Source: Lysobacterales bacterium
GTDB taxonomy: Bacteria > Pseudomonadota > Gammaproteobacteria > Xanthomonadales > SZUA-36
Direction of reading: 5' to 3'
Assembly (NCBI GenBank): GCA_021648125.1
Contig: JAKITK010000011.1
Span: 1 to 64,000 of the forward strand
DNA: 64,000 nt
A program made the translations under genes and the position numbers. The notes under the pieces are model-generated. The model made no database searches. It saw only the letters and a program-made list of their open reading frames with translations, and had not been told where the DNA came from. Positions 22,899 to 39,308 of the stretch are shown here, one piece after another; the stretch's first letter is position 1, and the number at the start of each line of letters is the position of its first letter.

Positions 22899-25800
22899 CT
22901 AAGAGAAGCTTCTCCGCTGATAGCGGTAGAAGCCAAACAACATCAGCATAAACATTGCCAACATTCCTTGCCAACTTAACGTCGGAACATTTATTGGTGG
23001 CAGGAGTGTTACCCCAGCGGCGGTGACGGTCACTGCATCATCGTTAGATTCAACATCATCTACCATTGCTACTGCAATATTGGTAAGCGTGCCATTATCC
23101 AAATCTAACTGAGTCACTGTATGTAAAGATGTACAGGTAACAGTGCCATTTGGCGGCAGTGGTGTTGGCAGTGGACAAATCACCAGCTCCTGGTCATCAA
23201 GTACAGATGCTAAACCAGGATCCAGAGTGTCTGGGCCGGTATTAGTAATCAGATAGGTATAGTTGATTACATCACCTATAGCTGCATAGGTTGCTACATC
23301 AGCAGTCTTGACCAACGATATGCTTGGCGGATTGAACGGTGTACAGGCCATGTTATCTGTCTGGTCATTATCCGAGGGGCTACCGCTTACATTATTCGTA
23401 AAGCCGGTATTGTTGCCGCCTGCATTATTAGCATCACAGTCGTTGCCTTCCGCAGTTACCTGACCAAGTACAATGCTAAAGGTTGCTGTAACAGTCCAAG
23501 TCTCTGTCGTATTGGCACCGATTTGCTCACCACTGACCGCTGTATCACCACTGTTAAACGGTGAGGTAATGGTACCTGTCTGGGTTTCCCCTCCCGCGTA
23601 TGCAATTTCTGCAGTATTCAGCGTAATACCCACTCCCGGGGTGAAAGTATCTACGATATCGTAGGTTCCCACGCCGTTAGTCGTATTGGTTGCAGTAATC
23701 GTATACACAACAGTGTAGATTCCAGCCGGTCCACGAACAGCAGGTCCATTAACTGTCTTAGCCAGGTTAACAGCTGGTTCCGGCAAGCCTGTACAAGCAT
23801 TGTTATCAGTAAAGTCAGTCTCAGTGGTACTACCATCCACATAGTTGTAGAAGCCGGTATTGATCGCTGGTGTACCCGCTGGGGCACACATCGCGGTCGC
23901 TGGATCGATTAATGCTGGATCAATGTTGAAGTTCGCCGTAATCGTCCACGACTCATCCATTCCACCTACCAGTGATTCACCACTGACCACCGTTGCACCG
24001 TTGGTAAACGGTGAGGTAATCGTACCCGACTGGTCGCTCTCCGTTCCCGCTAGATAAGCAGCCGTTGCCGTATTCAGGGTAATCCCTGCTGCTGGTGAGA
24101 AGGTATCTACCAGATCGTAAACACCAGGACCCTGACCGGTATTGGTCGCAGTCACTGTATAAACCACGGTATAAGTACCATCGTTCTCAAGCGTTGCCGG
24201 ACCATTGACGGTCTTCGCCAGATTAATACCTGGATCCGGTAAGCCGGTACAAGCATCGTTATCGCTCAAGTCAGTATCAGTAGCACTACCGGTTACAAAG
24301 TTGTAGAAGCCAGTATTGATCACTGGTGCATTAGCATCACAAGCACTGCTCGCTGGATCAACCAAAGTTGGGTCAACCGTAAAGTTGGCCGTTACTGTCC
24401 AGCTTTCATTCAAGCCCGCTGCCAGTGACTCATCAGCTACAAAGTTAGGATAGGCCGCCAGTGTACCTGTCTGTGCATTCTCCGTACCCGCAACATATAC
24501 CGCCGTTGCAGTGTTCAGCGTAATACCTGCTCCTGGTGAGAAGGTATCTACCAGATCATACATACCCGGACCTGCACCAGAGTTGCTTGCAGTAATGGTG
24601 TAAACCACATCATAGGTTCCATTACCTAACAATACTGCTGGTCCATTCACAACCTTCGCCAGATTAATACCTGGGTCCGGTAAGCCGGTACAAGCATCGT
24701 TATCGCTCAAGTCAGTATCAGTAGCACTACCGGTTACCAAGTTGTAGAAGCCGGTATTGATCACTGGTGTATTAGGATCACAAGCACTGCTCGCTGGATC
24801 AACCAACGCTGGGTCAACCGTAAAGTTGGCCGTTACTGTCCAGCTTTCATTCAAGCCCGCTGCCAGTGACTCACCCGCTACAAAGTTAGGATAGGCTGCT
24901 AGAGTTCCTGTCTGTAAGCTCTCCGTACCCGCAACATATACCGCCGTTGCAGTGTTCAGCGTAATACCTGCTCCTGGTGAGAAGGTATCTACCAGATCAT
25001 ACATACCCGGACCTGCACCAGAGTTGCTTGCAGTAATCGTGTAAACCACATCATAGGTTCCATTACCTAACAATACTGCTGCACCATTGACAACCTTCGC
25101 TAGATTAATGCCCGGGTCCGGTAAGCCGGTACAAGCATCGTTATCGCTCATGTCAGTATCAGTTGCACTACCTGTTACAAAGTTGTAGAAGCCGGTATTG
25201 ATCACTGGTGTATTAGGATCACAAGCACTGCTCGCTGGATCAATCGCAGCAGGATCAACTGTGAAGTTGGCTGTCACAGTCCAAAACTCATCAAGCCCAT
25301 CTCCCAGAGTTTCACCCGTTACAAAATTTGGATAAACACCTGTAGCTCCTGTCTGTGAGTTTTCACTCCCCGCCAGATAAGCGGCGGTAGCAGTATTCAG
25401 CGTAATACCAACACCTGGAGAGAAGGTATCCACAAGGTTATAAATACCCGGCCCACCACCAAGGTTAGTAGCAGTAATGGTATAGATCACAGTATAACTA
25501 CCGTTACCCTGCAATACCGCCGGGCCATTCACAGCTTTGGCCAGATTAATCCGAACCACATCAACTTGCTCGGTATCTTCATTACTTACTACCGGCGTAC
25601 CATCAACTTCCGCGTCCTGGGCGGTACCTGAGGCTATGTTGACTACATTACCAGCAAGCATATCTGCCTCAGTAATTGTATATGTAGCAGTACAAGTCAC
25701 GAACGCTCCCGGTGCCAATGCCGCCGGAGTTGTTGGACAGACCACTGTAGTCTTGTCATCGTTCACGCTGTAAGTCGGGTACAAGGTTATATTGCCAGCA

Positions 25801-28800
25801 TTGGTCAAGTCATATTCATAACTGATCAGAACACCCACCGAATTATAAGTAGCGGGGCTTGCTGATTTCACCAGTGTTAGCACAGGATTACCACCCAATG
25901 GCTGGGTATCAGGATCATCATCCGTTACCGGTGGGTCATTTGGTGGGGTACCAGTTACCGTCGCAGTATTAGTGAAGGTACCAGCATTAATATCAGCCTG
26001 GGTTAGCGTATAAGTTCCCGTAAAGGTCGTGCTATCGATTGCCCCTGGAGCTAATGTTGCGATCGTGCCACCGCTGATGGTTACACCAGGTATAGCATCT
26101 GTCAGCGTAATCCCAGTCAACGTCACATTACCCGTGTTGGTAACCGTGAAGGCATAACTAATAGTATCGCCAGCGTTCAGTCCTACCGGAGCTTCATCGT
26201 TCAGAGTTCCAACCTTCAACAGATCAATGGCTGGATTAGTGCTAGCAGTTACCGTTTCAGTATCCTGATTGCTAGGTACCGGAGCACCGCTAACAGCCGC
26301 ATCCATTGCTGAACCAACAGCAATATTGGTTACGAAACCAGCATCCAGGTCTGCCTGGGTAATTATATAGCCCGCAGTACAAGTCACACTCGCCAAAGGT
26401 ACCAGAGTCGCTGGACCTGCAGGACAAGTCACTGTCGCCTTATCATCGATAACCGCATAAACCGGGAATAGGTCGGTATTACCACTATTGGTTAAATCAT
26501 AAGTGTATGAAATAACTTCACCGACAGTACTATAGGTTAGCGGTGTTGCTGTTTTGACCAAGGTTAAACTAGGAACAGCATCATCATCATTGGTAATAGT
26601 ACAAGAGACATTATCTCCAGGTGCCAGCGTAACTGTATCCCCCAAAGCGGCTGGACAACCAGCGCCGGTTATCGATACAAAGCTATAACCAGCCACTAGA
26701 GTTTCATTTAACGCCAGTGCAACATTTGCATCATAGGCATTACTTACACCAGATACGACTGCTGCTCCACCTACCATTAGGTTAAAGTCATTCGGAACCG
26801 CAATACCGCCATTATCGTTATTCACCACTTTGGTTAAAGTCAAAGTCGGAGCAATATCATCATTGGTGATCTGACATACAGCCGACTCACCAAGTGCCAG
26901 CGTTAGCACATTACCTGCAAGAGAGCCTCCAGAACAAGCCCAAGTACTTGGAGCGTAGCCAGAAGGACCTCCGGTTTCTGTGAGCGTATAAACACCAGGA
27001 TCTACCGCAGTCAATACAACCGAACCTGCTCCAGATAACGGTGTCGGGCCTGCAGCTTCTACTGTCCAAGCCGTTGCTAGCTCTGTACCGCCATTGTCAT
27101 TGGTAACATTCTTAAGCAAAGACAAGAATGTCGAGTCATCATCATTGGTAATAGTACAAGAGACATTATCTCCAGGTGCCAGTGTAACTGTATCTCCCAG
27201 AGCGGCTGGACAAGCAGCATCTCCTGTTATCGATACAAAGCTGTAACCCGCCACCAGAGTTTCATTTAACGCCACTGCAACATTTGCATCATAGGCATTA
27301 CTTGCACCAGATACGACTGCTGCTCCACCTACCGTTAGGTTAAAGTCACTCGGAACCGCAATACCGCCATTATCGTTATTCACCACTTTGGTTAAAGTCA
27401 AAGTCGGGGCAATATCATCGTTGACAATAGTACAACTCGCACCACCGCCAGGCACCAGTGTCAACTGGTCACCAGATAATGAACCACCTGTACATGACCA
27501 TGCACCAGCAGTATAGCCAGCGGGACCTGTGCTTTCGCTTAAAGTATAAACTCCCGCATCCACAAAAGTTGCTGCGAAGCCACCAGCACCAGATACATTA
27601 GTCGGACCAGTAGCTGTTAAATTCCAGTCAGTTACTACCGCTGTACCACCGTTGTCATTAGTTACAAGCTTGGTTAGGGTTAAGGCTGCAGTCTCATCAT
27701 CATTTATGATAGTACAAGTGGCTGATTGACCCAAAGCCAACTCAAGAGAGTTGCCGGTCAAAGTACCAGCCGTACAAGACCAACTACCAGCGGCATAACC
27801 TGAAGGCCCACCAGCTTCTGTCAACACATAAGTGCCAGCATTAACTGCTGTCAGTACAACTCCACCCGCTCCAGATAATGGAGTAGGTCCAGCTGCACTC
27901 AAGACCCAGTCAGTTGCTACAGCTGTACCGCCATTGTCATTGGTAACATTCTTAATCAAGGACAGAAACGCAAATTGGTCATCATTATTAATGGTACAGG
28001 TAGTATCGGAACCTACTGGCAAGGTAGCCGTAGCACCGGAAATAGATCCTCCGCCGGAACCAACACATGACCACGAACTGGCAATATAACCTGCAGGACC
28101 CGCTGTTTCTGAGAGCACATAGTCTCCCGGGGTCACTACTACATTGGTGACTGCAGGTGTTCCGGTTACACCGGAAAGCGGGGTTGTGCCAGCTGCGTTT
28201 AATGTCCAGTCGGTTGCTGCTGCTGTACCGCCGCTGTTGTTAGTTATTGTTTTGACTAATGTTAATATTGTATCTTTTGTGTTTGTATAGGTACATATAA
28301 CAGTTTCACCAGCCGCTAGATCCACAGCTACTGTTGTATCACCAGGGTCAAAGTTGGGATCACCATTAAACTGAATGCCTGAGTTCACTGCGCCGGTACA
28401 GGAAATATCGGTTAATACCCAGTCAGCAGGTACTGTTTCTGTAGTGAAAATCACACCGCCACCAACCGTAATCGTGGTGCTTAATTCAGTCGCGGCAATG
28501 TCGAAGTCTGTGAGGGAGCCAGTGAGGGCGGCTATATTGCCATTGAAGCTAAAGCTCTGTGGATCCATATCCGGCAACGTTTGTTTGCGAACAATCAAGG
28601 TACCCAGATTAGTATTGGTGAAAGTACAGGTAACTACTTCATCCGTAGCTACACTTACATTAGGTAGCGTACTACCATTATCACAACTACTGGAAACCAG
28701 CGACCAGTTGGCTGGCACGGTTTCGCTAAGGTCATACACCCCCGGTGCCAATCCGGTAACGCTGGTAGTACCAGTGCCACCTACTGTGGTAATAGAGAGT

Positions 28801-31800
28801 GTCTGATCACCGCCGGTAAATGCCAGTGGGAATTCAAAGGTACCATCACCACTAGGGGCTACGGTGTTCTTAACAATTACTATGCTACCCAATGGTATCG
28901 GGGCACAATCAAACGCATCAACCGCAACCCCCAGAGTAGTTAGTATTGCACGATTAAGCAGACCAGTTCTAACTAGGTCACCAGTTAAGAGATCGCAATC
29001 GGCTATATCCGGGGTGATCAAACTTGCATCTGGAATGGTATAAATGAATTCAATCGTATAAGTTTCAGAATTACCTGGCTGTAACTGCTCATTCAGAGCA
29101 ATTTGGGGGTAACCTGGAGGAGCTGAGTTATTAGTTTCTAGAACATCTGGTGACGACCAGGTAACAGTTGGCACACCAACAATCGTAACACCTGCGCCGA
29201 AGCGCTCAAAGTCAGCAATGCTATACACGCCGACAGCTCCGCTGCCATTGGTGTTGCTAATAGCCGTATTGGTAACCGTAATATCGTAGATAATTGAGTA
29301 TTCGTTGAAGTTACCCGTGATTGCTGGCGCTTGAGTAACTACTTTAGTGTGGTTAAGTTGGCCCGGTACAAAGCCATAGTCAGCCAGTTCAGTATGGAAG
29401 CCTTCGTTAGGCATTACTAGTGTAACAGTCGCGTAAGTGTTACCAACATCAAGACCCGCATCAGAATCGATCTGATCAGCGGCATCACCCGGCGTAACTT
29501 GATTTACATTCACATCACTAAGCAATAAGTCACTTAATAAAGCATCATTAACAGTATCACCATCAACATCAACCGCTTGTGATAGGTCAATTCTAAGCTC
29601 ATAAGTATCCCCCGAAACCAGCCCATCATCCGATGAGAAAGAATAAATACCACTAGCATCTGTGGTTGCGCAGAGTTGGTTGCCGGTAAAACCGCCGCCG
29701 AATGCCAGCTCTGGCACGGCTACACCCGCGTTATCGAAGGCACAAACTTCCACCCCTGGAATAGGTGGCTCACCTGGGTCTTGAATACCATTGTTATTGG
29801 TGTCAAACCAGACGAAATCGCCAATGAAACTGACAGTGATTTTAAGCACCACATGGGTATCACGGCCGGTACCCGATTGGGTACTCTTAAAACCATCAAA
29901 TATTGGTACTTCACCACCCACAAAGTCAGCTCGATGTACCCCATCACGCCCGATAAGCGGGTGGGTATGAGAGTCGCTGCCAGTTAGTCCAAAATGACCT
30001 GTATGCATTGTGGTACCCAGATATAGTGCAAGATTATCGGTAAAAATATGATTAGCACCACGCGCTGCGCCAGTTCTGCCCAGGTAATCTTTCTTATCAC
30101 CACCAAGGTAAGTACCGAAAACCTGCTCATCCAAAGTGTTATTCAAAGCAGCGAAGACGATATCGGTTTTACTCAGATCTACACTAGAATCGGCTTCGTT
30201 GCCCCCTGTACCAGGAGTATATTCGCTATGAAAAAAAGTGCCTGCTGGGCCAAAATTTCGAGTCGGGAATGCTCCGGTGTCTGGTCCACCGCTATTAGAT
30301 GAGTTAGAGGTACCGTAAATAAAAACCCCACCAAAATACTGGGTTACTGCATTACCAAGATCTCTAAAACGCCCACCCAGATAAGTAGCAATCCACTCCC
30401 CGCCAGCGGCCGTACCATCGGCAAAGAAGCGTCCAATAATGATGTCCTCTGCGCCTGCATTGGCGGCCTGGAAAGGTGTATGCGCAGTTGCAGTATTAGA
30501 GTCTAATGAGAAATCTGTAGAGCTGGTAAAACCGGTTACGAAAATAGAGTAGTTCTGAGCTGCACCGGATTGTGAGATTCCTACAAAGCGATTGTCATCA
30601 TTACCCACAAAACGGCTTAACATCGAAAAGCCACCAGTTACCGGGTCAATTACACCCACAATCGCATCTTCATTACCTGTCGGTGCCGTCACTACTCCGT
30701 TAACTGTACCTAAATCATTAACTAGTGTCGGAAAAGTTGCCTGAGAAGATGTGGTAAAACCTGCGAACGCTACCCTACCATCATTCAGAACAATCATCTG
30801 GTCGGCCTGATCACGGTCGTTACCACCTACATAGGTGCCGTAAACCAGGGTGCTATAAGAGGTAAAGTGACCTATATATATATCCGAAGAATCACCACCA
30901 TAGGTGGTATCAGCACCGGTGCCACCGATGAAATCGCCGGGCTGCTCTAAGGGATCACCAAAGTTACCCATCATCCAGAACTCTTGATCACCAATAATTT
31001 GTAATGAAACTATGTCTTCATCGTGCTCAGAACCTGACCCACTGGCACCATCACCACCACTAGTACTACCGATATAAGTGGAATATCTAAGCGTAGTTAA
31101 GTCAGGATCGAAAACTGCAACAAAGCCATCAAAGCTACCATCCAAATCATTATCTATGGGGTTTTGCATGGGTAAATCAGTTGATCCGGTAGTGCCCGCA
31201 ATCCAGACATCGCCATTCGGGCCTAATTTAATTTCATAAGCTTGGTCCCTGCCATTACCACCGAAATGAGTTGCTCTAACCACTTCCTCGCCGTTGGCAG
31301 AAAATACATAAATAATTGCATCTGCACTAGCAGCTTTGGTAGAGTCGTATGGAACAACGCCAGGGTAGACAACACCGTCGGCTGTGGTACCACCACTACG
31401 AACAAAACCCATATAGTCTGCGGCATTGCTCATTGGGATAGTCTCATCAGTAGCACCGGCGGCATAAACTTCTTGAGTGGTGGGGTGAACTGTTATCGCA
31501 AATAGGTATTCATCGAAGCCGGACAACGGTCCTTGGTCTCGGCCATCCATCCAGTTGCCCCACTCAAGCACTGGGTCAATAATCAGTGGCAGGTCAGGAT
31601 TGATTTCGCCTTCAACATGGTAGGCAATTAGGTTATCCGTTGATAAATCGAAGTTAACTTCGACTGGAAGCTTACCATTGGCATCAACCTGATAGCTTTC
31701 CGGTATATCCAAAGCTAACGCGCCATTAAATAGCGCAATAGAGAGGTTATCTTTTTCATTTAAGCTAATGCCATCATGGCCATCTGCGCGTAGTTTAATT

Positions 31801-32429
31801 TGCTTATAATCAACGCCAGCGGCGATAATCCAGTCAAACTCAAGGCGACCATCTTCGCGACCATATAGGCGCAGGTCGATTCCAGCGTATACATTTTGCA
31901 GGGTAATATCATGTAGAGCTTTTACTCCAGCAGTTGTATCTTCACCGCGGAAATAACTAAAACTGGTCGAATATGCCTCACCTTCTACAATCCCGGTGCT
32001 GCCGGGGGAGCCGTCAAAAGCAAGTTCCCAGTATTGCATTCCGTGAGTGTCTTCACTTTTATTACCACGAGGGGTGATAAAACTGAGGCGGTCGTTTTTA
32101 ACCAGCACAATGCCAGTCAAAGATTTGCCCACATAGAGCACATCTTGCGGCCATTGGCCCTGGTTTCTTATAAACTGAATGGTTTTGAGATTTTCTCGCA
32201 GCGAATCCTTTACTTTCTCAAGGATTTTTTTGAGCTCCTCATCATCAGCTCCTACAGATTCAACTAATGGAACTAACGGCGCTTGACCAATAACCTTTGT
32301 GGCAGGTATCCCGGCAGACAAATTGCCCGCGGCAACTGTCACCAAAATAGTTGGAATCAAAACACAAATTAATTTTTGAATAGAAAAAAATCGCGTCCAC
32401 GATGTGGCCCGAATTGTAAAATTCCCCAT
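22899..32429 (-). CDS. giant repetitive IPTL-CTERM surface protein (SBBP propeller, SdrD-B, prealbumin-like and DUF11-like repeats)
   Basis: A 3176-residue exported protein. Signal peptide about 1-40; a conserved N-terminal domain (FIRNQGQWPQDVLYVG) about 80-290; an SBBP-type beta-propeller about 295-865 with repeated YVGGNDRDQAD-like blades; an SdrD B-like domain about 867-1015 (GDFVWFDTNNNGIQDPGEP). Next, a DUF11-like domain, eight prealbumin/SpaA-like repeats (TNDNGGTAV...LSGAGG) to about 1955, three DUF11-like domains, five 147-residue NLAK repeats, one more DUF11-like domain and a C-terminal sorting signal (VPTLSWQGMLAMFMLMLFGF, then YRYQRR). The C-terminus fits the IPTL-CTERM class processed by exosortase H, which is not in the window. 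A GGGAG site precedes ATG 32429. Probable adhesin or surface-layer protein; substrate unknown. Confidence 0.88.
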   Translation of the reverse strand: MGNFTIRATSWTRFFSIQKLICVLIPTILVTVAAGNLSAGIPATKVIGQAPLVPLVESVGADDEELKKILEKVKDSLRENLKTIQFIRNQGQWPQDVLYVGKSLTGIVLVKNDRLSFITPRGNKSEDTHGMQYWELAFDGSPGSTGIVEGEAYSTSFSYFRGEDTTAGVKALHDITLQNVYAGIDLRLYGREDGRLEFDWIIAAGVDYKQIKLRADGHDGISLNEKDNLSIALFNGALALDIPESYQVDANGKLPVEVNFDLSTDNLIAYHVEGEINPDLPLIIDPVLEWGNWMDGRDQGPLSGFDEYLFAITVHPTTQEVYAAGATDETIPMSNAADYMGFVRSGGTTADGVVYPGVVPYDSTKAASADAIIYVFSANGEEVVRATHFGGNGRDQAYEIKLGPNGDVWIAGTTGSTDLPMQNPIDNDLDGSFDGFVAVFDPDLTTLRYSTYIGSTSGGDGASGSGSEHDEDIVSLQIIGDQEFWMMGNFGDPLEQPGDFIGGTGADTTYGGDSSDIYIGHFTSYSTLVYGTYVGGNDRDQADQMIVLNDGRVAFAGFTTSSQATFPTLVNDLGTVNGVVTAPTGNEDAIVGVIDPVTGGFSMLSRFVGNDDNRFVGISQSGAAQNYSIFVTGFTSSTDFSLDSNTATAHTPFQAANAGAEDIIIGRFFADGTAAGGEWIATYLGGRFRDLGNAVTQYFGGVFIYGTSNSSNSGGPDTGAFPTRNFGPAGTFFHSEYTPGTGGNEADSSVDLSKTDIVFAALNNTLDEQVFGTYLGGDKKDYLGRTGAARGANHIFTDNLALYLGTTMHTGHFGLTGSDSHTHPLIGRDGVHRADFVGGEVPIFDGFKSTQSGTGRDTHVVLKITVSFIGDFVWFDTNNNGIQDPGEPPIPGVEVCAFDNAGVAVPELAFGGGFTGNQLCATTDASGIYSFSSDDGLVSGDTYELRIDLSQAVDVDGDTVNDALLSDLLLSDVNVNQVTPGDAADQIDSDAGLDVGNTYATVTLVMPNEGFHTELADYGFVPGQLNHTKVVTQAPAITGNFNEYSIIYDITVTNTAISNTNGSGAVGVYSIADFERFGAGVTIVGVPTVTWSSPDVLETNNSAPPGYPQIALNEQLQPGNSETYTIEFIYTIPDASLITPDIADCDLLTGDLVRTGLLNRAILTTLGVAVDAFDCAPIPLGSIVIVKNTVAPSGDGTFEFPLAFTGGDQTLSITTVGGTGTTSVTGLAPGVYDLSETVPANWSLVSSSCDNGSTLPNVSVATDEVVTCTFTNTNLGTLIVRKQTLPDMDPQSFSFNGNIAALTGSLTDFDIAATELSTTITVGGGVIFTTETVPADWVLTDISCTGAVNSGIQFNGDPNFDPGDTTVAVDLAAGETVICTYTNTKDTILTLVKTITNNSGGTAAATDWTLNAAGTTPLSGVTGTPAVTNVVVTPGDYVLSETAGPAGYIASSWSCVGSGGGSISGATATLPVGSDTTCTINNDDQFAFLSLIKNVTNDNGGTAVATDWVLSAAGPTPLSGAGGVVLTAVNAGTYVLTEAGGPSGYAAGSWSCTAGTLTGNSLELALGQSATCTIINDDETAALTLTKLVTNDNGGTAVVTDWNLTATGPTNVSGAGGFAATFVDAGVYTLSESTGPAGYTAGAWSCTGGSLSGDQLTLVPGGGASCTIVNDDIAPTLTLTKVVNNDNGGIAVPSDFNLTVGGAAVVSGASNAYDANVAVALNETLVAGYSFVSITGDAACPAALGDTVTLAPGDNVSCTITNDDDSTFLSLLKNVTNDNGGTELATAWTVEAAGPTPLSGAGSVVLTAVDPGVYTLTETGGPSGYAPSTWACSGGSLAGNVLTLALGESAVCQITNDDIAPTLTLTKVVNNDNGGIAVPNDFNLMVGGAAVVSGVSNAYDANVALALNETLVAGYSFVSITGAGCPAALGDTVTLAPGDNVSCTITNDDDAVPSLTLVKTATPLTYSTVGEVISYTYDLTNSGNTDLFPVYAVIDDKATVTCPAGPATLVPLASVTCTAGYIITQADLDAGFVTNIAVGSAMDAAVSGAPVPSNQDTETVTASTNPAIDLLKVGTLNDEAPVGLNAGDTISYAFTVTNTGNVTLTGITLTDAIPGVTISGGTIATLAPGAIDSTTFTGTYTLTQADINAGTFTNTATVTGTPPNDPPVTDDDPDTQPLGGNPVLTLVKSASPATYNSVGVLISYEYDLTNAGNITLYPTYSVNDDKTTVVCPTTPAALAPGAFVTCTATYTITEADMLAGNVVNIASGTAQDAEVDGTPVVSNEDTEQVDVVRINLAKAVNGPAVLQGNGSYTVIYTITATNLGGGPGIYNLVDTFSPGVGITLNTATAAYLAGSENSQTGATGVYPNFVTGETLGDGLDEFWTVTANFTVDPAAIDPASSACDPNTPVINTGFYNFVTGSATDTDMSDNDACTGLPDPGINLAKVVNGAAVLLGNGTYDVVYTITASNSGAGPGMYDLVDTFSPGAGITLNTATAVYVAGTESLQTGTLAAYPNFVAGESLAAGLNESWTVTANFTVDPALVDPASSACDPNTPVINTGFYNLVTGSATDTDLSDNDACTGLPDPGINLAKVVNGPAVLLGNGTYDVVYTITASNSGAGPGMYDLVDTFSPGAGITLNTATAVYVAGTENAQTGTLAAYPNFVADESLAAGLNESWTVTANFTVDPTLVDPASSACDANAPVINTGFYNFVTGSATDTDLSDNDACTGLPDPGINLAKTVNGPATLENDGTYTVVYTVTATNTGQGPGVYDLVDTFSPAAGITLNTATAAYLAGTESDQSGTITSPFTNGATVVSGESLVGGMDESWTITANFNIDPALIDPATAMCAPAGTPAINTGFYNYVDGSTTETDFTDNNACTGLPEPAVNLAKTVNGPAVRGPAGIYTVVYTITATNTTNGVGTYDIVDTFTPGVGITLNTAEIAYAGGETQTGTITSPFNSGDTAVSGEQIGANTTETWTVTATFSIVLGQVTAEGNDCDANNAGGNNTGFTNNVSGSPSDNDQTDNMACTPFNPPSISLVKTADVATYAAIGDVINYTYLITNTGPDTLDPGLASVLDDQELVICPLPTPLPPNGTVTCTSLHTVTQLDLDNGTLTNIAVAMVDDVESNDDAVTVTAAGVTLLPPINVPTLSWQGMLAMFMLMLFGFYRYQRRSFS
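23335..25560. repeat. five tandem ~441-bp coding repeats in the giant gene
   Basis: Five successive units encode ~147-residue domains starting (I/V)NLAK(V/T/A)VNGPA and ending SDNDACTGLPDP. The middle three are nearly identical in DNA: the marker AAGCCGGTAC falls at 24241, 24682 and 25123, exactly 441 bp apart. Recent tandem duplication and a site for length variation by slippage or recombination. Confidence 0.85.
26579..27690. repeat. ~555-bp coding duplication in the giant gene
   Basis: The block encoding two prealbumin-like repeats recurs at a 555-bp offset: GGTAATAGTACAAGAGACAT begins at 26592 and again at 27147. Following sequence (NETLVAGYSFVSITG, then VTLAPGDNVSCTITNDD) is near-identical in both copies. 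Confidence 0.8.
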
Positions 32430-34206: not shown

Positions 34207-35328
34207 TCAATTCCGTTCTTCAATTGAGTTAACTGTTCTGTCTTCAGGGCCGATGTAGTCGGCGGTCGGGCGGATAATACGATTATTGGCACGCTGTTCG
34301 AAACAGTGTGCGGTCCAGCCGGTGACTCGGGACATTACAAATATCGGGGTAAACAGGCGGGTTGGAATACCTAGAAAGTGATAGGCGGATGCATGAAAGA
34401 AATCGGCATTGGCAAACATGCCCTTTTCTTCTTTCATTACCCGCTCTACGGTTTCAGAGACTGAATACAGCACGCTGTCACCGGCCTCTTGCGCCAGTTG
34501 TTTTGACCAGTGTTTGATAATTGAATTACGCGGGTCGCGTTTTTTATATACCGCGTGCCCAAAACCCATAATCAATTCACGCGCCGCCAGCTTGCGTTTG
34601 ATTTCAGTTTCAGCATGTTCGGCTGAATCCAAAGTTTCAATTAGCGCCATGGCTTCTTCGTTGGCTCCACCGTGTAGCGGTCCGCGCAGTGCGCCGATGG
34701 CGGCGGTTACACAAGAAAATAAATCAGATAATGTAGATGCAACCACTCTGCCGGTGAAGGTAGAGGCATTAAATTCATGCTCTGCATACAGCGTTAGCGA
34801 TACATCCATCACCCGCGCGTGCAATTCAGATGGCTTTTTACCGTGCAACATGTGCAGGAAGTGTCCACCAATAGAATCATCATCAGTTTGTGTATCAATA
34901 CGGATACCATCATGCGAATAGCGATACCAGTAACAAATGATTGATGGGAAAGCCGCCAGCAGCCTTTCAGCAACCTGTTGTTGGTGGCTAAAATCACCTT
35001 CCGGTTCAATATTACCAAGGAAAGAACAACCGGTACGCATCACATCCATGGGGTGGGTGTCGGCTGGAATGCGTTCCAATACTTCGCACAAGGCCTGTGG
35101 CAATCCACGCTGGCTGATGCTGCTTGCTTGTAAATTAGTCAGTTGCTGCTGATTGGGCAATTCACCATGCCAAATTAAGTAAGCAGTTTCATAAAATGTG
35201 GCGTTTTCTGCTAGGTCATCAACAGCATAACCCCGATAGCGCAGGCTGTTGCCTTCAGCACCCACTGTACAAATACTGGTCTCACCCGCAGACTGGCCGC
35301 GTAGACCGGCTGATTTTGAATCACTCAT
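34207..35328 (-). CDS. prpC: 2-methylcitrate synthase PrpC
   Basis: A 373-residue short-form citrate synthase-fold enzyme that condenses propionyl-CoA with oxaloacetate. The N-terminal GLRGQSAGETSICTVG (about 8-23) is characteristic of PrpC. Catalytic His segments GALRGPLHGGANEEAM and MGFGHAVYKKRDPR and the later DFFHAS acidic residue are visible. It sits between prpB and prpD. Its co-substrate oxaloacetate could be supplied by the mdh gene at the head of the operon. Confidence 0.96.
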   Translation of the reverse strand: MSDSKSAGLRGQSAGETSICTVGAEGNSLRYRGYAVDDLAENATFYETAYLIWHGELPNQQQLTNLQASSISQRGLPQALCEVLERIPADTHPMDVMRTGCSFLGNIEPEGDFSHQQQVAERLLAAFPSIICYWYRYSHDGIRIDTQTDDDSIGGHFLHMLHGKKPSELHARVMDVSLTLYAEHEFNASTFTGRVVASTLSDLFSCVTAAIGALRGPLHGGANEEAMALIETLDSAEHAETEIKRKLAARELIMGFGHAVYKKRDPRNSIIKHWSKQLAQEAGDSVLYSVSETVERVMKEEKGMFANADFFHASAYHFLGIPTRLFTPIFVMSRVTGWTAHCFEQRANNRIIRPTADYIGPEDRTVNSIEERN

Positions 35329-35337
35329 AATTTTTCC

Positions 35338-36222
35338 TTACTTTTTGTTGTCTTTCTGTTCAGCAAACAGCTGATCCAGTTTTTGTTCATATTGGTGGTA
35401 ACCCAGATAGTCGTATAGCTCTTCCCGGGTTTGCATGATGTCGATCACATTGCGTTGATGACCGTCATTAATTAAGGCTTCATAAACACTCATTGCCGCC
35501 TTGTTCATTGCCCGATATGCACCGCAGCAATAAAGCACGATATCGACACCGGCTTGACCTAATTCCGGGGTAGAAAATAGCGGGGTATGCCCAAATTCGG
35601 TGATATTGGCGAGCATAGGCACACCAATTGCTGCACGGAATTTACGATAGTCATCAAGTTCCAGCATGGCTTCCGGAAAAACCATATCGGCACCGGCTTC
35701 AACATAGGCTATCGCCCGTTCGATGACAGCATCAATACCTTCAACCGCGCGTGCATCGGTACGCGCCATAATGACAAAACTTTCATCGGTTCTGGCATCA
35801 ACTGCGGCTTTTATCCGGTCGCACATCTCCGCTTTACTAACCACTTCCTTACCCGGCCGATGGCCACAGCGTTTTTGGGCCACCTGGTCTTCTATGTGCA
35901 TTGCCGCTGCACCCGCTTTGCTCACCGCGCGTACGGTGCGGGCAATATTAAATGCTCCACCAAAACCGGTGTCGACATCGACTAACAAGGGCAAGTCGCA
36001 AACGTCGGTAATTCGACGGATATCAATAAGGATGTCTTCCAGTGCGGAAATGCCCAGATCGGGCATTCCCAATGAATTCGCCGCTACGCCGCCACCGGAA
36101 AGATATATTGCCTGATGTCCGGCGCGTTTGGCCATTCGTGCGGTATAGGCATTGATGGTTCCAACCACCTGCAAAGGTGCGTGCTTGGCTACCAGTTGGC
36201 GAAATTGCTTGCCGGTACTCAC
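35338..36222 (-). CDS. prpB: 2-methylisocitrate lyase PrpB
   Basis: A 294-residue ICL/PEPM-family lyase that splits 2-methylisocitrate into pyruvate and succinate. The motif [10 protein letters not shown] carries the catalytic Cys (isocitrate-lyase KKCGH equivalent); Mg-binding acids are in VDVDTGFGG and HIEDQ. The start is GTG 36222 within a GTGA overlap with the mdh stop, so it is coupled to mdh. prpC follows after 9 bases. Confidence 0.96.
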
Positions 36223-37190
36223 AGCAGGTTGCTGACGGCTTCGGCTTCTTCGCGCAGTTCTTTATCAGTGGCATCCATCAGTGCACGGCTGAATTCGGAA
36301 ACTTCCAAACCCTGAACAATTTCGTATTCGCCATCTTTACATACACAAGGGTAGGAATAGATAACGCCAGGCTCAATGCCGTAACTACCGTCTGCGGGAA
36401 CTGCCATCGAGACCCAATCGCCCTCGGCTGTGCCCAGTGCCCAGCTGCGCATATGGTCGATTGCAGAAGATGCCGCTGAAGCTGCTGATGAAGCACCACG
36501 AGCTTTAATAATTGCTGCACCGCGTTGCTGAACCGATGGAATAAAGGTATCAACATACCAATCATTATCAACTTCCAGTGTATGCCCACCAATTTCAACA
36601 TTGCTGATATCCGGGTACTGAGTTGATGAATGATTACCCCAAATGGTCATTTTGCGGATATCCGCATTATGCGCACCGGTTTTGTTGGCTAATTGCGCTA
36701 GCGAACGGTTGTGATCCAAACGGGTCATGGCAGTAAAATTACGCGGGTTTAAATCCGGCGCTGCAGCGCGTGCAATCAGCGCGTTGGTATTGGCAGGATT
36801 ACCCACCACCAGCACTTTAATATCACGACTGGAATGCGCATTCATCGCCCTGCCCTGCGGTCCAAAAATTGCCCCATTGGCGGAGAGTAAATCAGCACGC
36901 TCCATGCCCGGCCCGCGAGGTCGCGCGCCAACCAGTAAGGCATAATCGGTGTCTTTGAAGGCTATATTGGCATCATCGGTAGTAACCACCCCGTGCAATA
37001 ACGGGAAAGCCGCATCGTCCAGCTCCATAGCCACACCTTCAAGTGCGCCCAAGGCCGGGGTGATTTCCAATAACTGCAAAATCACCGGTTGATCTGCGCC
37101 CAGCATATCGCCGGATGCGATGCGGAAACAAAGTTGGTAACCGATTTGGCCAGCGGCTCCAGTAATGGCAATGCGAACGGGGTCTTTCAT
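36219..37190 (-). CDS. mdh: malate dehydrogenase, first gene of the prp operon
   Basis: A 323-residue NAD-dependent malate dehydrogenase of the cytosolic-type/group I family. The Rossmann motif is [17 protein letters not shown]; substrate arginines appear in [15 protein letters not shown] and [13 protein letters not shown]; the catalytic His is in [15 protein letters not shown]. It overlaps prpB by 4 bases, so it belongs to the methylcitrate operon and can regenerate oxaloacetate from the succinate/fumarate/malate branch. An AGGAG site precedes ATG 37190. Confidence 0.95.
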
Positions 37191-37334: not shown

Positions 37335-37416
37335 GGTGCGCCCGCCTACGGCTTGACAGCACCCTACCCAACACCATGAATTTCGTAGGGTGTGTTAGCC
37401 GCAGGCGTAACGCACC
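37335..37416. repeat. imperfect long inverted repeat (GGTGCG...CCCTAC type)
   Basis: Arm 37335-37367 (starting GGTGCG, containing GCCTACGGCTTGACA, ending CACCCTAC) pairs with arm 37384-37416 (CGTAGGGTGTGTTAGCCGCA, ending AACGCACC) at roughly 80 percent, with one small indel on each side. Elements with the wording GTAGGGTG(C/T)GTTAGC...AACGCACC are familiar as dispersed intergenic repeats in many bacteria. Here it may also act as a hairpin. Confidence 0.55.
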
Positions 37417-37454
37417 AGTCTTTTCCATATACGTTAAGAAAAAACGGCTAACCT

Positions 37455-37524
37455 CAATCTTAAACCTAAGTTGTATATTATCTCAACCTGGTTTAAAATT
37501 ATTTTTATATGTAGTTTAAGATTG
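37455..37524 (+). promoter_or_regulatory. paired 11-bp half-sites upstream of the winged-helix/GHKL gene
   Basis: CAATCTTAAAC (37455-37465) and GTTTAAGATTG (37514-37524) are perfect inverted repeats 48 bp apart; a near copy GTTTAAAATT lies at 37491. The last site ends 10 bases before the ATG, so a bound protein would block initiation. The encoded protein's own winged helix is an obvious candidate binder (inference). Confidence 0.55.
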
Positions 37525-37534
37525 AAATAAGATT

Positions 37535-38542
37535 ATGAAAGCAATCCTAAAAATCCTGACCCTGGTAAAGAAAAACAAAGAGGGTTGCAGCGCGAGCGTG
37601 TTAGAAAAAGAGCTGGGTTACTCCCGACAATATATTGTACGACTACTGAACCAGTTAATTTCACAGGGCGAAATATACCGACTGGGTAAAACCCGTGCGG
37701 CTAAATACTACCTTGGTAAAGCCACCGATACTAGCAACTCCCTGCAACTGATCAAAGAAAGAAAGGGCCTGTCGGAATCCGTGGTTTTTGAGGAAATCAG
37801 AACAAGAATGCAGCTTAATCGACTGCTTAATAAAAATTGCCTGACAATTTTTGATTATTCCTTCACCGAAATGCTAAACAATGCCATAGACCACTCACAA
37901 AGCCGGAAAGTCTGGATAAGCGTTAACATTGATCCGACCAGTATTTCATTTATAGTTAAGGACTTAGGCATAGGTGCAATCGAAAACATCAAGCAAGGCT
38001 TCAAAATAAAGGATAACTTTCAAGCACTAGAACACCTGTTTAAAGGCAAACAAACAACGGCTGCAGAAGCACACAGTGGACAGGGGATATTTTTTACCTC
38101 AAAGGTGGTGGATGTTTTTAAACTAAGCACCTCAGGTATGGAGTTCACCATCGACAACCTCAGAACTGATGAATTTCTGAAAGATATACGACAGCGAAAA
38201 GGCACCAGTGTAAGTTGTACAATAAAGAAAAATACCCGACGAAAAATTAAGGCGGTTTTCGACAAATATACTGGGGAAGATTACGAGTTTAATCAGAATA
38301 TTGTCAAAATCAACCTATCCGGTCACAGCCGTCTTATGTCCAGATCTGAAGCCAAAAGGTTATTGCTGGGGCTTGATGAATACGCGGTGTTGGACTTTAA
38401 CTTCCAGAGCGTGGATGTCGTTGGCCAGGGGTTCTGTGACGAAATATTCAGAGTTTATGCGAACAAACATCCAGATAAAACCCTGAGTTATCACAACACT
38501 TCAGATGTGGTTCGCTATATGATTGAAAGATCTCGGGGATAA
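37535..38542 (+). CDS. winged-helix / GHKL ATPase / STAS-like (DUF4325) fusion protein
   Basis: A 335-residue three-domain protein. Residues 1-70 form a winged helix (SASVLEKELGYSRQYIVRLL). Residues about 95-240 are a GHKL ATP-binding domain with N-box FTEMLNNAIDHS, G1 KDLGIGAIENI and G2 HSGQGIFFTSK. There is no phosphoacceptor His domain, so it is not a classical kinase. Residues about 265-330 match the DUF4325 STAS-like family (EYAVLDFNFQSVDVVGQGFC, then DEIFRVYA). Its architecture resembles an anti-sigma kinase and its STAS antagonist fused in one chain with a DNA-binding domain. It is a lone gene between the prp operon and a toxin-antitoxin pair. Role unknown; a phage-defence or stress switch is possible. 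Confidence 0.82.
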   Translation: MKAILKILTLVKKNKEGCSASVLEKELGYSRQYIVRLLNQLISQGEIYRLGKTRAAKYYLGKATDTSNSLQLIKERKGLSESVVFEEIRTRMQLNRLLNKNCLTIFDYSFTEMLNNAIDHSQSRKVWISVNIDPTSISFIVKDLGIGAIENIKQGFKIKDNFQALEHLFKGKQTTAAEAHSGQGIFFTSKVVDVFKLSTSGMEFTIDNLRTDEFLKDIRQRKGTSVSCTIKKNTRRKIKAVFDKYTGEDYEFNQNIVKINLSGHSRLMSRSEAKRLLLGLDEYAVLDFNFQSVDVVGQGFCDEIFRVYANKHPDKTLSYHNTSDVVRYMIERSRG

Positions 38543-38718: not shown

Positions 38719-39087
38719 TCAAGCCATCAACTCAAGATCAGGAATATATTGAAAGTCTTTGCTGTTATAGGTGAATAATTGAGCTTTTTTATTCAAGGCC
38801 GTGGCGCTGATCAGGGCATCGGGGATATCTAATCCATGGCTTTTGGCAAAACGGGTAATCAGTTTAAGTGCCCTATGGGAAATAACAGGATCAAAATGAA
38901 TGATCAAAAACTTGGCAATAAACTGTGTTAACAAGCGAATTTCTTTTTTATTTCTGGCACCAACCATTAACTCCATAGCTGTAATCGAAGATATTGCCAG
39001 TGGTGGGGTCAAGGCAGATACCTGCTTAATTGTATGCTGATTGTTTTTAAGTATCTCAATCAGCACATTGGTGTCCAGCAAGATCAT
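38719..39087 (-). CDS. VapC-type PIN-domain toxin (pair 4)
   Basis: A 122-residue PIN toxin. It has MILLDTNVLIEIL with the first Asp, a Glu in ITAMELMVGARNK, an acidic pair in HGLDIPDALISATAL and the end motif FTYNSKDFQYIPDLEL. The ATG overlaps the antitoxin stop as ATGA. The sequence is of the type paired with ribbon-helix-helix antitoxins and differs from pairs 1-3, so the four pairs came separately rather than by local duplication. Confidence 0.9.
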   Translation of the reverse strand: MILLDTNVLIEILKNNQHTIKQVSALTPPLAISSITAMELMVGARNKKEIRLLTQFIAKFLIIHFDPVISHRALKLITRFAKSHGLDIPDALISATALNKKAQLFTYNSKDFQYIPDLELMA

Positions 39088-39308
39088 TTCCAGGCTTTTT
39101 GGCGAAGACTTTCCTGACTGATTTCAGAATCTTCCCAAAGCCCTGCAAAGCCGGAGAAATCAACCGGCACCATCAATTCCTTTTCTAATTCCAGCTCTTT
39201 TTGTATAAGCTCTCTGATATAGGCGGATATCGAAAGATTGGCCCTTGCTGCCCTCTGGCGGATGGCTGCAAATAAGGGTTCATCAAAATAGATTTGAGTG
39301 CGGTGCAT
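39084..39308 (-). CDS. ribbon-helix-helix antitoxin (pair 4)
   Basis: A 74-residue antitoxin with an N-terminal strand (HRTQIYFDEPLFAAI) and helices (RQRAARANLSISAYIRELIQ), the CopG/Arc ribbon-helix-helix pattern. Its acidic C-terminus (LWEDSEISQESLRQKAWK) would contact the toxin. ATG 39308 has a GAGGAG site. A direct repeat upstream (39332-39354) is the probable operator. Confidence 0.88.
   Translation of the reverse strand: MHRTQIYFDEPLFAAIRQRAARANLSISAYIRELIQKELELEKELMVPVDFSGFAGLWEDSEISQESLRQKAWK

Follow-up and report, generated by a model that had tools for sequence, protein, structure and literature searches.

The gene and its three domains

The window analysed here, a stretch of 64,000 nucleotides, contains on its forward strand an open reading frame of 335 amino acids (37535-38542) in which three domains are joined in a single chain. 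These are a winged-helix DNA-binding domain of the IclR/MarR type (residues 1-66; 37535-37732), a GHKL ATPase domain of the SpoIIAB/RsbW type (residues 66-234; 37730-38236) and, at residues 236-335 (38240-38539), a DUF4325 domain of STAS fold, all on the forward strand. Within the winged helix we have taken residues 28-44 to be the recognition helix. The gene is preceded by a putative operator array (37456-37523), and a VapBC segment (38719-39308), encoding a VapC-like PIN toxin and a ribbon-helix-helix antitoxin on the reverse strand, lies 176 bp downstream. The gene and VapBC sit together between a gene of the malate dehydrogenase type and a gamma-glutamyltranspeptidase gene. We note two further features on the reverse strand of the window. 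Citrate synthase-type, PEP mutase/isocitrate lyase-type and malate dehydrogenase-type genes lie in a row (34207-37190), which is perhaps a methylcitrate-like cluster, and a repetitive open reading frame of 3176 amino acids (22899-32429) has by eye the look of a surface protein. No tRNA was found in the window.

Comparison with Pfam matched DUF4325 (PF14213, STAS-like) to residues 288-326, with an E-value of 7.5e-8 and 32.4 bits against a gathering score of 23. HATPase_c matched residues 110-231 (E 1.2e-5) with 26.2 bits, just under its cut-off of 26.4, and MarR_2 (residues 7-49, E 2.3e-5) and HTH_11 (residues 5-48, E 0.0026) were both matched under their cut-offs. The full protein was modelled as a monomer with AlphaFold2 from 29 sequences (mean pLDDT 82.5, pTM 0.66). 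In this model residues 1-66 resemble the winged helices of IclR/MarR proteins (TtgV, 2xrn_A; Z 12.0, 64 residues aligned, 1.1 Å), while residues 66-234 are closest to SpoIIAB (1til_E; Z 13.6, 135 residues aligned, 2.8 Å) and are RsbW-like too. The Foldseek rows from the full model left the C-terminus uncovered, and the last 100 residues were modelled separately (pLDDT 83.7). Mostly STAS domains were matched by this segment (those of RsbS, SpoIIAA, RsfB and SLC26), with a best Z of 7.5 and a best Foldseek E-value of 0.028. The Z value is middling on the scale of the tool, but the rows agree with Pfam and the comparison supports a predicted STAS fold rather than another fold for the C-terminus. 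Searching solved structures by sequence gave weak matches alone, including HTH and kinase/anti-sigma GHKL entries. The fusion of a DNA binder, an ATPase and a STAS-like domain proposed in the preliminary description of this DNA is thus borne out by Pfam and by the comparison of folds.

That description also held that the protein lacks a histidine kinase domain. There was no HisKA-type or DHp dimerization domain among the Pfam matches listed at E ≤ 1, and what precedes the ATPase domain is a winged helix, not a DHp/HisKA domain with a phospho-histidine. Identity as a histidine kinase was dropped on both grounds.

The ATP-binding site comprises an N box (residues 112-121), a G1 motif (143-147), a conserved KGKxTT sequence (170-175) and a G2 motif (180-187). 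Twelve of its residues (N115, N116, H120, D143, G145, G147, K170, G171, T174, G182, G184 and F186) are present in 43 out of 43 aligned homologues, and E112 is kept in 42; the near-copies L002 and L008 were left out of this alignment. The invariance of these residues in 43 fusions indicates that the site is under strong selection. The N/G1/G2 site is therefore complete, as had been read from the single sequence, and it has not been lost in the orthologues. We propose that the GHKL domain, which is of the anti-sigma-kinase type, binds ATP.

The STAS domain has Q298 and G299 at the two positions that we take, from setting it against the SpoIIAA motif without gaps, to correspond to Ser58 and Ser59 of SpoIIAA. 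In the DUF4325 domain alignment none of 60 cellular fusions (again excluding L002 and L008) carries serine or threonine at either position, and the same is true of 26 of the 27 viral fusions, the remaining one having S299. By contrast, S or T is present in one of the two columns in every one of 21 DUF4325 proteins with a different architecture, among them that of phage AS1. The fusions are perhaps one lineage, so that loss of the acceptor may have been a single evolutionary event. With the acceptor missing, we rejected an in-chain phospho-relay through the canonical residue, and the expectation of an ordinary phosphorylatable STAS antagonist was not borne out.

Other arrangements of these domains were also seen. 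L034, L042 and L050 encode proteins of about 425 amino acids with the GHKL domain near residues 138-260 and a C-terminal DUF4325 domain in which the serine is kept, possibly a different branch of GHKL-STAS fusions. In L053 a second short STAS-like frame (G426:C72:55902-56114) lies about 0.9 kb downstream of a full-length fusion, and is a possible trans partner or remnant.

Putative operator boxes and their relation to the winged helix

Four putative operator boxes precede the gene. Box 1 (AATCTTAAAC, 37456-37465, forward strand) is the outer left half-site; it is the exact complement of box 4 and is conserved in L002. The inner left half-site, box 2 (TATCTCAACC, 37479-37488, forward strand), begins 23 bp after box 1 and is degenerate in the window, with TATCTTAATC at the same place in L002. 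The two right half-sites are on the reverse strand. Box 3 (inner, 37491-37500) reads GTTTAAAATT on the forward strand, its counterparts being GTTTAAGATT in L002 and GTTTAAGATA in L003, and box 4 (outer, 37514-37523), which follows box 3 by 23 bp and lies 11 bp ahead of the ATG, reads GTTTAAGATT on the forward strand. The four-box array is also found in the orthologues of 92% and 76% identity, and in L014.

The inverted repeat noticed in the preliminary description is exact, with 12-nt arms (37454-37465 and 37514-37525) that are 100% complementary, and no more than 1 in 200 shuffles gave a repeat of this quality. It had been placed over the start of the gene; that part does not stand, as the repeat ends 9 bp before the ATG and leaves the start uncovered. 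The repeat is the outer pair of a nested dyad of four boxes with a common centre at 37489/37490. Over 45 positions the dyad scores 26, a value that none of 200 shuffles attained (mean 20.4, maximum 25). A consensus search of the same strand upstream of the gene gave no sigma-70-like promoter, so the geometry of a repressor is an assumption; counts of promoter and terminator consensus matches were about those in shuffled sequence. Just upstream of the operator, at 37376-37416, there is a short repeat that occurs at many places in the four genomes of the genus, a REP-like dispersed element.

Direct repeats were sought in the upstream regions of the family, defined from the first in-frame start codon as an assumption, by requiring 8 of 9 positions to match at every lag from 6 to 59. 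Among 54 cellular regions (leaving out L158, L160 and L161, whose upstream sequences are near-identical) repeats were present at a lag of 21 in 16, of 22 in 28 and of 23 in 4, whereas the expectation for each of these lags is 0.5-0.9 by shuffling, or 0.8-1.1 when the counts in 349 regions upstream of neighbouring genes are scaled. Other lags were mostly found in 0-4 regions, with further peaks at 43 and 44 (7 each, due to third copies) and at 32 (5). Taking lags 21-23 together, 38/54 cellular loci have a repeat, compared with 2.4 by shuffling and 15/349 in the upstream regions of neighbouring control genes. The viral loci, a set that was found separately and that keeps the near-copies L215/216, L218/219, L199/200 and L198/201, gave 19/26 against 1.8 by shuffling. 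At the chosen threshold 16/54 cellular and 7/26 viral upstream regions have no pair at 21-23 bp. A strong inverted repeat is the exception in the family: of 57 upstream regions 17 have one at p ≤ 0.01, and a single clade accounts for at least 9 of these.

The sequence of the box varies by clade, taking the forms GTTTAAGATT, CCTTTAAGAAAA, TTGACAAT, TTTACAAT, TTGTCGA and TAGTTATAAT. A viral clade comprising L210, L214, L215 and L216 has its own type of box, around TATAGTTAAAA, with a spacing of 21 bp. The occurrence of a distinct box at this spacing in a distinct viral clade indicates that the operator layout spans deep branches. Box similarity was compared with identity in the recognition helix for the 51 of 82 members with a box, or 43 after dropping those at least 80% identical to one already kept. 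When the rest of the protein was removed, box similarity correlated with helix identity with a partial r of 0.239 (permutation p 0.0005); given the helix, the partial r with the rest of the protein was 0.010 (p 0.43). The correlation with the helix is modest and covers box-bearing members only. Boxes that track the recognition helix and not the rest of the protein are the signature expected if the winged helix of the protein reads them, and the statistics of the family strongly suggest that it binds its own promoter.

The places at which the boxes occur were then counted in 24 genomes, chosen because the member that each carries has the box type concerned. In 9 genomes of the CCTTTAAGAAA class the 12-mer was found at 25 places, of which 22 are at the promoter of the gene itself; the reversed pattern gave 6, and the three single matches elsewhere are in G629, G819 and G769. 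Paired-box patterns of two other classes were searched in 15 genomes, and 18 of 20 places are at the gene, the others being G696:C11:7238 and G873:C130:32930; reversed controls gave 3 places for one pattern and 0 for the other, and three of the genomes (G668, G882 and G870) had no exact match. Combining these, 40 of 45 places are at the gene's own promoter and the 5 others are not above the reversed controls, for exact patterns that will overlook degenerate or differently spaced sites. The own genome of the window protein has 72 box matches with one mismatch allowed, compared with 65 for the reversed control, and among the matches listed no pair lies within 100 bp except at this promoter. The idea of a regulon of boxes in that genome was dropped on both counts. 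Sequence statistics thus support the view that the protein acts mainly or solely on the promoter of its own gene. The self-regulation by way of this repeat that the preliminary description had suggested is accordingly supported at the level of the family by the repeats, by the relation of box to helix and by the self-targeting.

Distribution and genomic setting

The family is more common than the preliminary description implied. Counting its own genome, matches are present in 13 of 101 relatives and in 10 of 39 genomes of the same taxonomic family. In a sample of the class 36 of 369 genomes match, of which 30 have a match over 230 or more of the 335 residues and 6 a shorter one, and the DUF4325 domain by itself occurs in 26 of 299 genomes of the phylum. 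An alignment scan found relatives on 29 viral contigs, 27 of them with frames of at least 273 amino acids. Scanning the viral contigs with a single protein matched none of them, and a tblastn search with the window protein gave no match in phages or plasmids; the plasmids queried with L156 gave one distant record. Several relatives are fragments or frames with stops only, some of which are at contig ends while others fit decay. L016, L017 and L018, from the same family of genomes, have C-terminal fragments alone, with an in-frame stop in L016, and are probably decayed copies of the same gene.

Neighbourhoods were fetched for 42 loci, and the 7 without a member by BLAST were left out to give 35. 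The commonest clusters of neighbours, each named from one representative, were ABC transporters (6 loci), phage-type integrases (5) and LysR regulators (4), at varying distances. No family was found in more than 6 of the 42 loci, and a conserved operon was dropped as an explanation, since neither a conserved partner nor a recurrent downstream gene was present in the 35 neighbourhoods. The neighbourhood comparison proposed in the preliminary description thus gave no conserved partner, and VapBC is not recurrent among the shared clusters. The locus of the 92% identical orthologue (G003) has the fusion gene and is otherwise matching but lacks the VapBC segment, which must therefore have been gained in the window or lost in G003. 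The hint of a role taken from the toxin-antitoxin neighbour did not survive this comparison, and involvement of VapBC was rejected.

For 4 of the 35 members (L084, L105, L091 and L080, the last being the locus of the 76% identical orthologue) a phage-type integrase is encoded nearby, and in L091 the integrase-cluster protein (L091:10218-11381) is encoded by the gene adjacent to the family member. In a genome of the same genus (G001) the flanking genes are joined directly, with about 160 bp between them and no gene, as read by eye. Ten viral neighbours were compared with PHROGs. Six of these were terminase, portal, tape-measure or tail-sheath genes (in L215, L214, L213 and L202), one was transposase-like (L200) and three were unmatched or of unknown function. 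When ten other viral neighbours were compared with Pfam four were matched (chitinase-type, transposase, serine recombinase and baseplate hub) and six were not. A quick tree of 84 rows has at least 15 switches between viral and cellular labels, of which 11 are forced by well-supported branches. Under shuffling the mean is 22.5 and 1 in 500 is as low as observed. The switches are fewer than under shuffling and yet number at least 15, indicating clustering as well as exchange between phages and bacteria. Carriage by phages, integrases near 4/35 members and the empty site in a sister species together make it likely that the gene resides in a mobile-element setting.

Known systems and a proposed mechanism

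In SpoIIAB/SpoIIAA and RsbW/RsbV the kinase and its STAS partner are separate proteins, a serine is phosphorylated and there is no DNA-binding domain. These partner switches are described in the same way in PMC13373217. The GHKL and STAS domains of the window protein are predicted to have folds of the same type, but they are fused, the serine is missing and a winged helix has been added.

The nearest characterized system that we found is CapK-CapS (Chambers et al. 2026, PMC13373217). As described in that report, it consists of two genes, encoding a kinase of HTH-STAS-GHKL order and a repressor of STAS-wHTH order with the phospho-acceptor Ser54 in its STAS domain. The repressor acts at its own promoter, binding repeated half-sites cooperatively at one of two sites; an immune operon lies directly downstream in 348 of 443 cases, and the system is activated by single-stranded DNA. 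HTH, STAS and SpoIIAB-like GHKL domains are thus brought together in one regulatory system in both cases, and self-regulation by a winged helix, predicted here, would be a further likeness. The window protein, however, is a single chain of order wHTH-GHKL-STAS, its acceptor is absent where CapS has Ser54, its family has boxes repeating at 21-23 bp unlike those of CapK-CapS, and it has no conserved neighbouring operon, the downstream VapBC being on the other strand and absent in G003. The missing serine or threonine argues against an in-cis counterpart of the phosphorylation of CapS by CapK. As a home for the window protein CapK-CapS fails on its two-gene layout, its acceptor serine and its downstream immune operon. 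Neither 'DUF4325' nor 'fusion' is used as a word anywhere in PMC13373217.

Split pairs of genes are known in phages. In Marinobacter phage AS1 (L193:4567-6017) AS1_41 (371 amino acids, with no Pfam match at E ≤ 0.05) and AS1_40 (DUF4325, with serine at both acceptor positions) lie just past a Cro/CI gene, and a table passage of PMC7924643 gives Fhv_0046/0047 of Francisella phage KIRK as a split DUF4325 pair. Both have a DUF4325 gene after a larger protein and near Cro/CI genes, as separate genes unlike the fusion in the window. No description of the single-chain family was present in the literature searched, which covered few subscription papers and in which DUF4325 appears as table entries only. 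We regard the protein as a fusion of known parts in a new single-chain arrangement, one that is not unique to the window.

We think it probable, with moderate confidence, that the gene is a mobile, stand-alone autorepressor that targets itself, with a SpoIIAB-like ATPase gated by a STAS domain that serves as a pseudo-substrate. The winged helix would bind an array of boxes of about 10 bp that are two helical turns apart and end near its own start codon, and occupancy of the array would lead to cooperative autorepression. Lacking a phosphorylatable residue, the STAS domain could dock in cis on the GHKL domain as a pseudo-substrate. Either the state of ATP or some signal to which the GHKL-STAS unit responds would then alter the geometry of the dimer or the array and release the promoter; by analogy with CapK the best guess for the signal is single-stranded DNA. 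After release the protein would build up and act on a protein partner. Since the gene seems to target itself alone, the output is probably such a contact, with a sigma factor or STAS partner, when derepressed. The domains, the conservation of the ATP site, the array read by the winged helix, the self-targeting, the absent acceptor and the mobility are supported by sequence statistics, and we infer repression rather than activation, gating by ATP, docking in cis, the signal and the output.

The output step is where a kinase acting in trans, similar to CapK or RsbW, would be compatible with this autorepressor. The GHKL domain would phosphorylate a separate STAS protein, or sequester a sigma factor, encoded elsewhere, with the C-terminal STAS domain no more than a regulatory lid and the winged helix just setting the level of the protein. 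The structural similarity of the modelled domain to SpoIIAB and RsbW is in keeping with this, as are the occurrence in other genomes of stand-alone DUF4325 genes that have the serine or threonine and the example of CapK, which also has HTH and STAS domains and phosphorylates CapS in trans (PMC13373217). Yet no STAS partner gene recurs beside the fusion, and in its own genome both the protein and DUF4325 are matched at this gene only, leaving this reading plausible at a little short of an even prospect. The carriage of relatives on 29 viral contigs raises instead a moron gene of phages or prophages for superinfection exclusion or anti-phage defence, silenced by its own array and freed on infection. 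Genes of the terminase, portal, tape-measure and tail-sheath kinds lie within about 1.3 kb in L215, L214, L213 and L202, the labels on the tree change at least 15 times, and GHKL-STAS regulators of phage defence are known (PMC13373217). A role in defence or superinfection is plausible from carriage, but carriage on phages is not proof of function, the viral contigs L200 and L209 have transposase or recombinase genes nearby instead, and the best match of the protein in PADLOC was a CARF-type HTH (E 0.0014) that covers the winged helix only. We hold the moron reading to be possible and on balance somewhat doubtful.

An ordinary one-component transcription factor, having a regulon that exact patterns overlook, is suggested by the MarR/IclR type of the winged helix, by the single boxes elsewhere in G629, G819 and G769 and by the pairs elsewhere in G696 and G873. 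These five places do not exceed the reversed controls (6, 3 and 0), the other 40 of 45 are at the gene, and there is no conserved neighbouring target operon, making such a factor improbable. Membership of the adjacent toxin-antitoxin system has a precedent in VapKSC (PMC13373217), in which a GHKL kinase and a STAS protein, parts also found in the window protein, accompany VapC, the STAS protein being its antitoxin; here a CapK-like kinase would act over the VapC that is encoded 176 bp downstream. There is no three-gene operon in the window, however, and VapC is on the opposite strand and pairs with its own ribbon-helix-helix antitoxin. The lack of VapBC beside the 92% identical orthologue largely refutes the proposal. 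No VapBC recurs in the shared clusters either, and we give this reading almost no weight.

The autorepressor can be extended to a self-contained mobile switch, a single gene that would bring together a sensor ATPase, a STAS gate that is dead, and a repressor along with the sole operator array on which it acts. ATP-driven assembly on two-turn repeats would replace the phosphorylation of SpoIIAB/AA and CapK/CapS, and phage infection or DNA damage would derepress the gene, with the protein then filling the cell and disabling a sigma factor of host or phage. We offer this tentatively, and consider it rather unlikely to hold as a whole.

Partner switching between a GHKL kinase and a STAS protein through a phosphorylated serine or threonine governs sporulation, stress responses and, in the 2026 report, immune operons. 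Here the parts are fused in a widespread family of phages and bacteria, with the acceptor absent, the ATP site intact and a conserved, self-directed operator layout. Self-regulation would be a candidate role for the HTH domain of CapK, to which its authors assigned no function (PMC13373217). The family would show a phospho-switch turned into an ATP-gated repressor of one chain, and would provide a compact system for direct tests.
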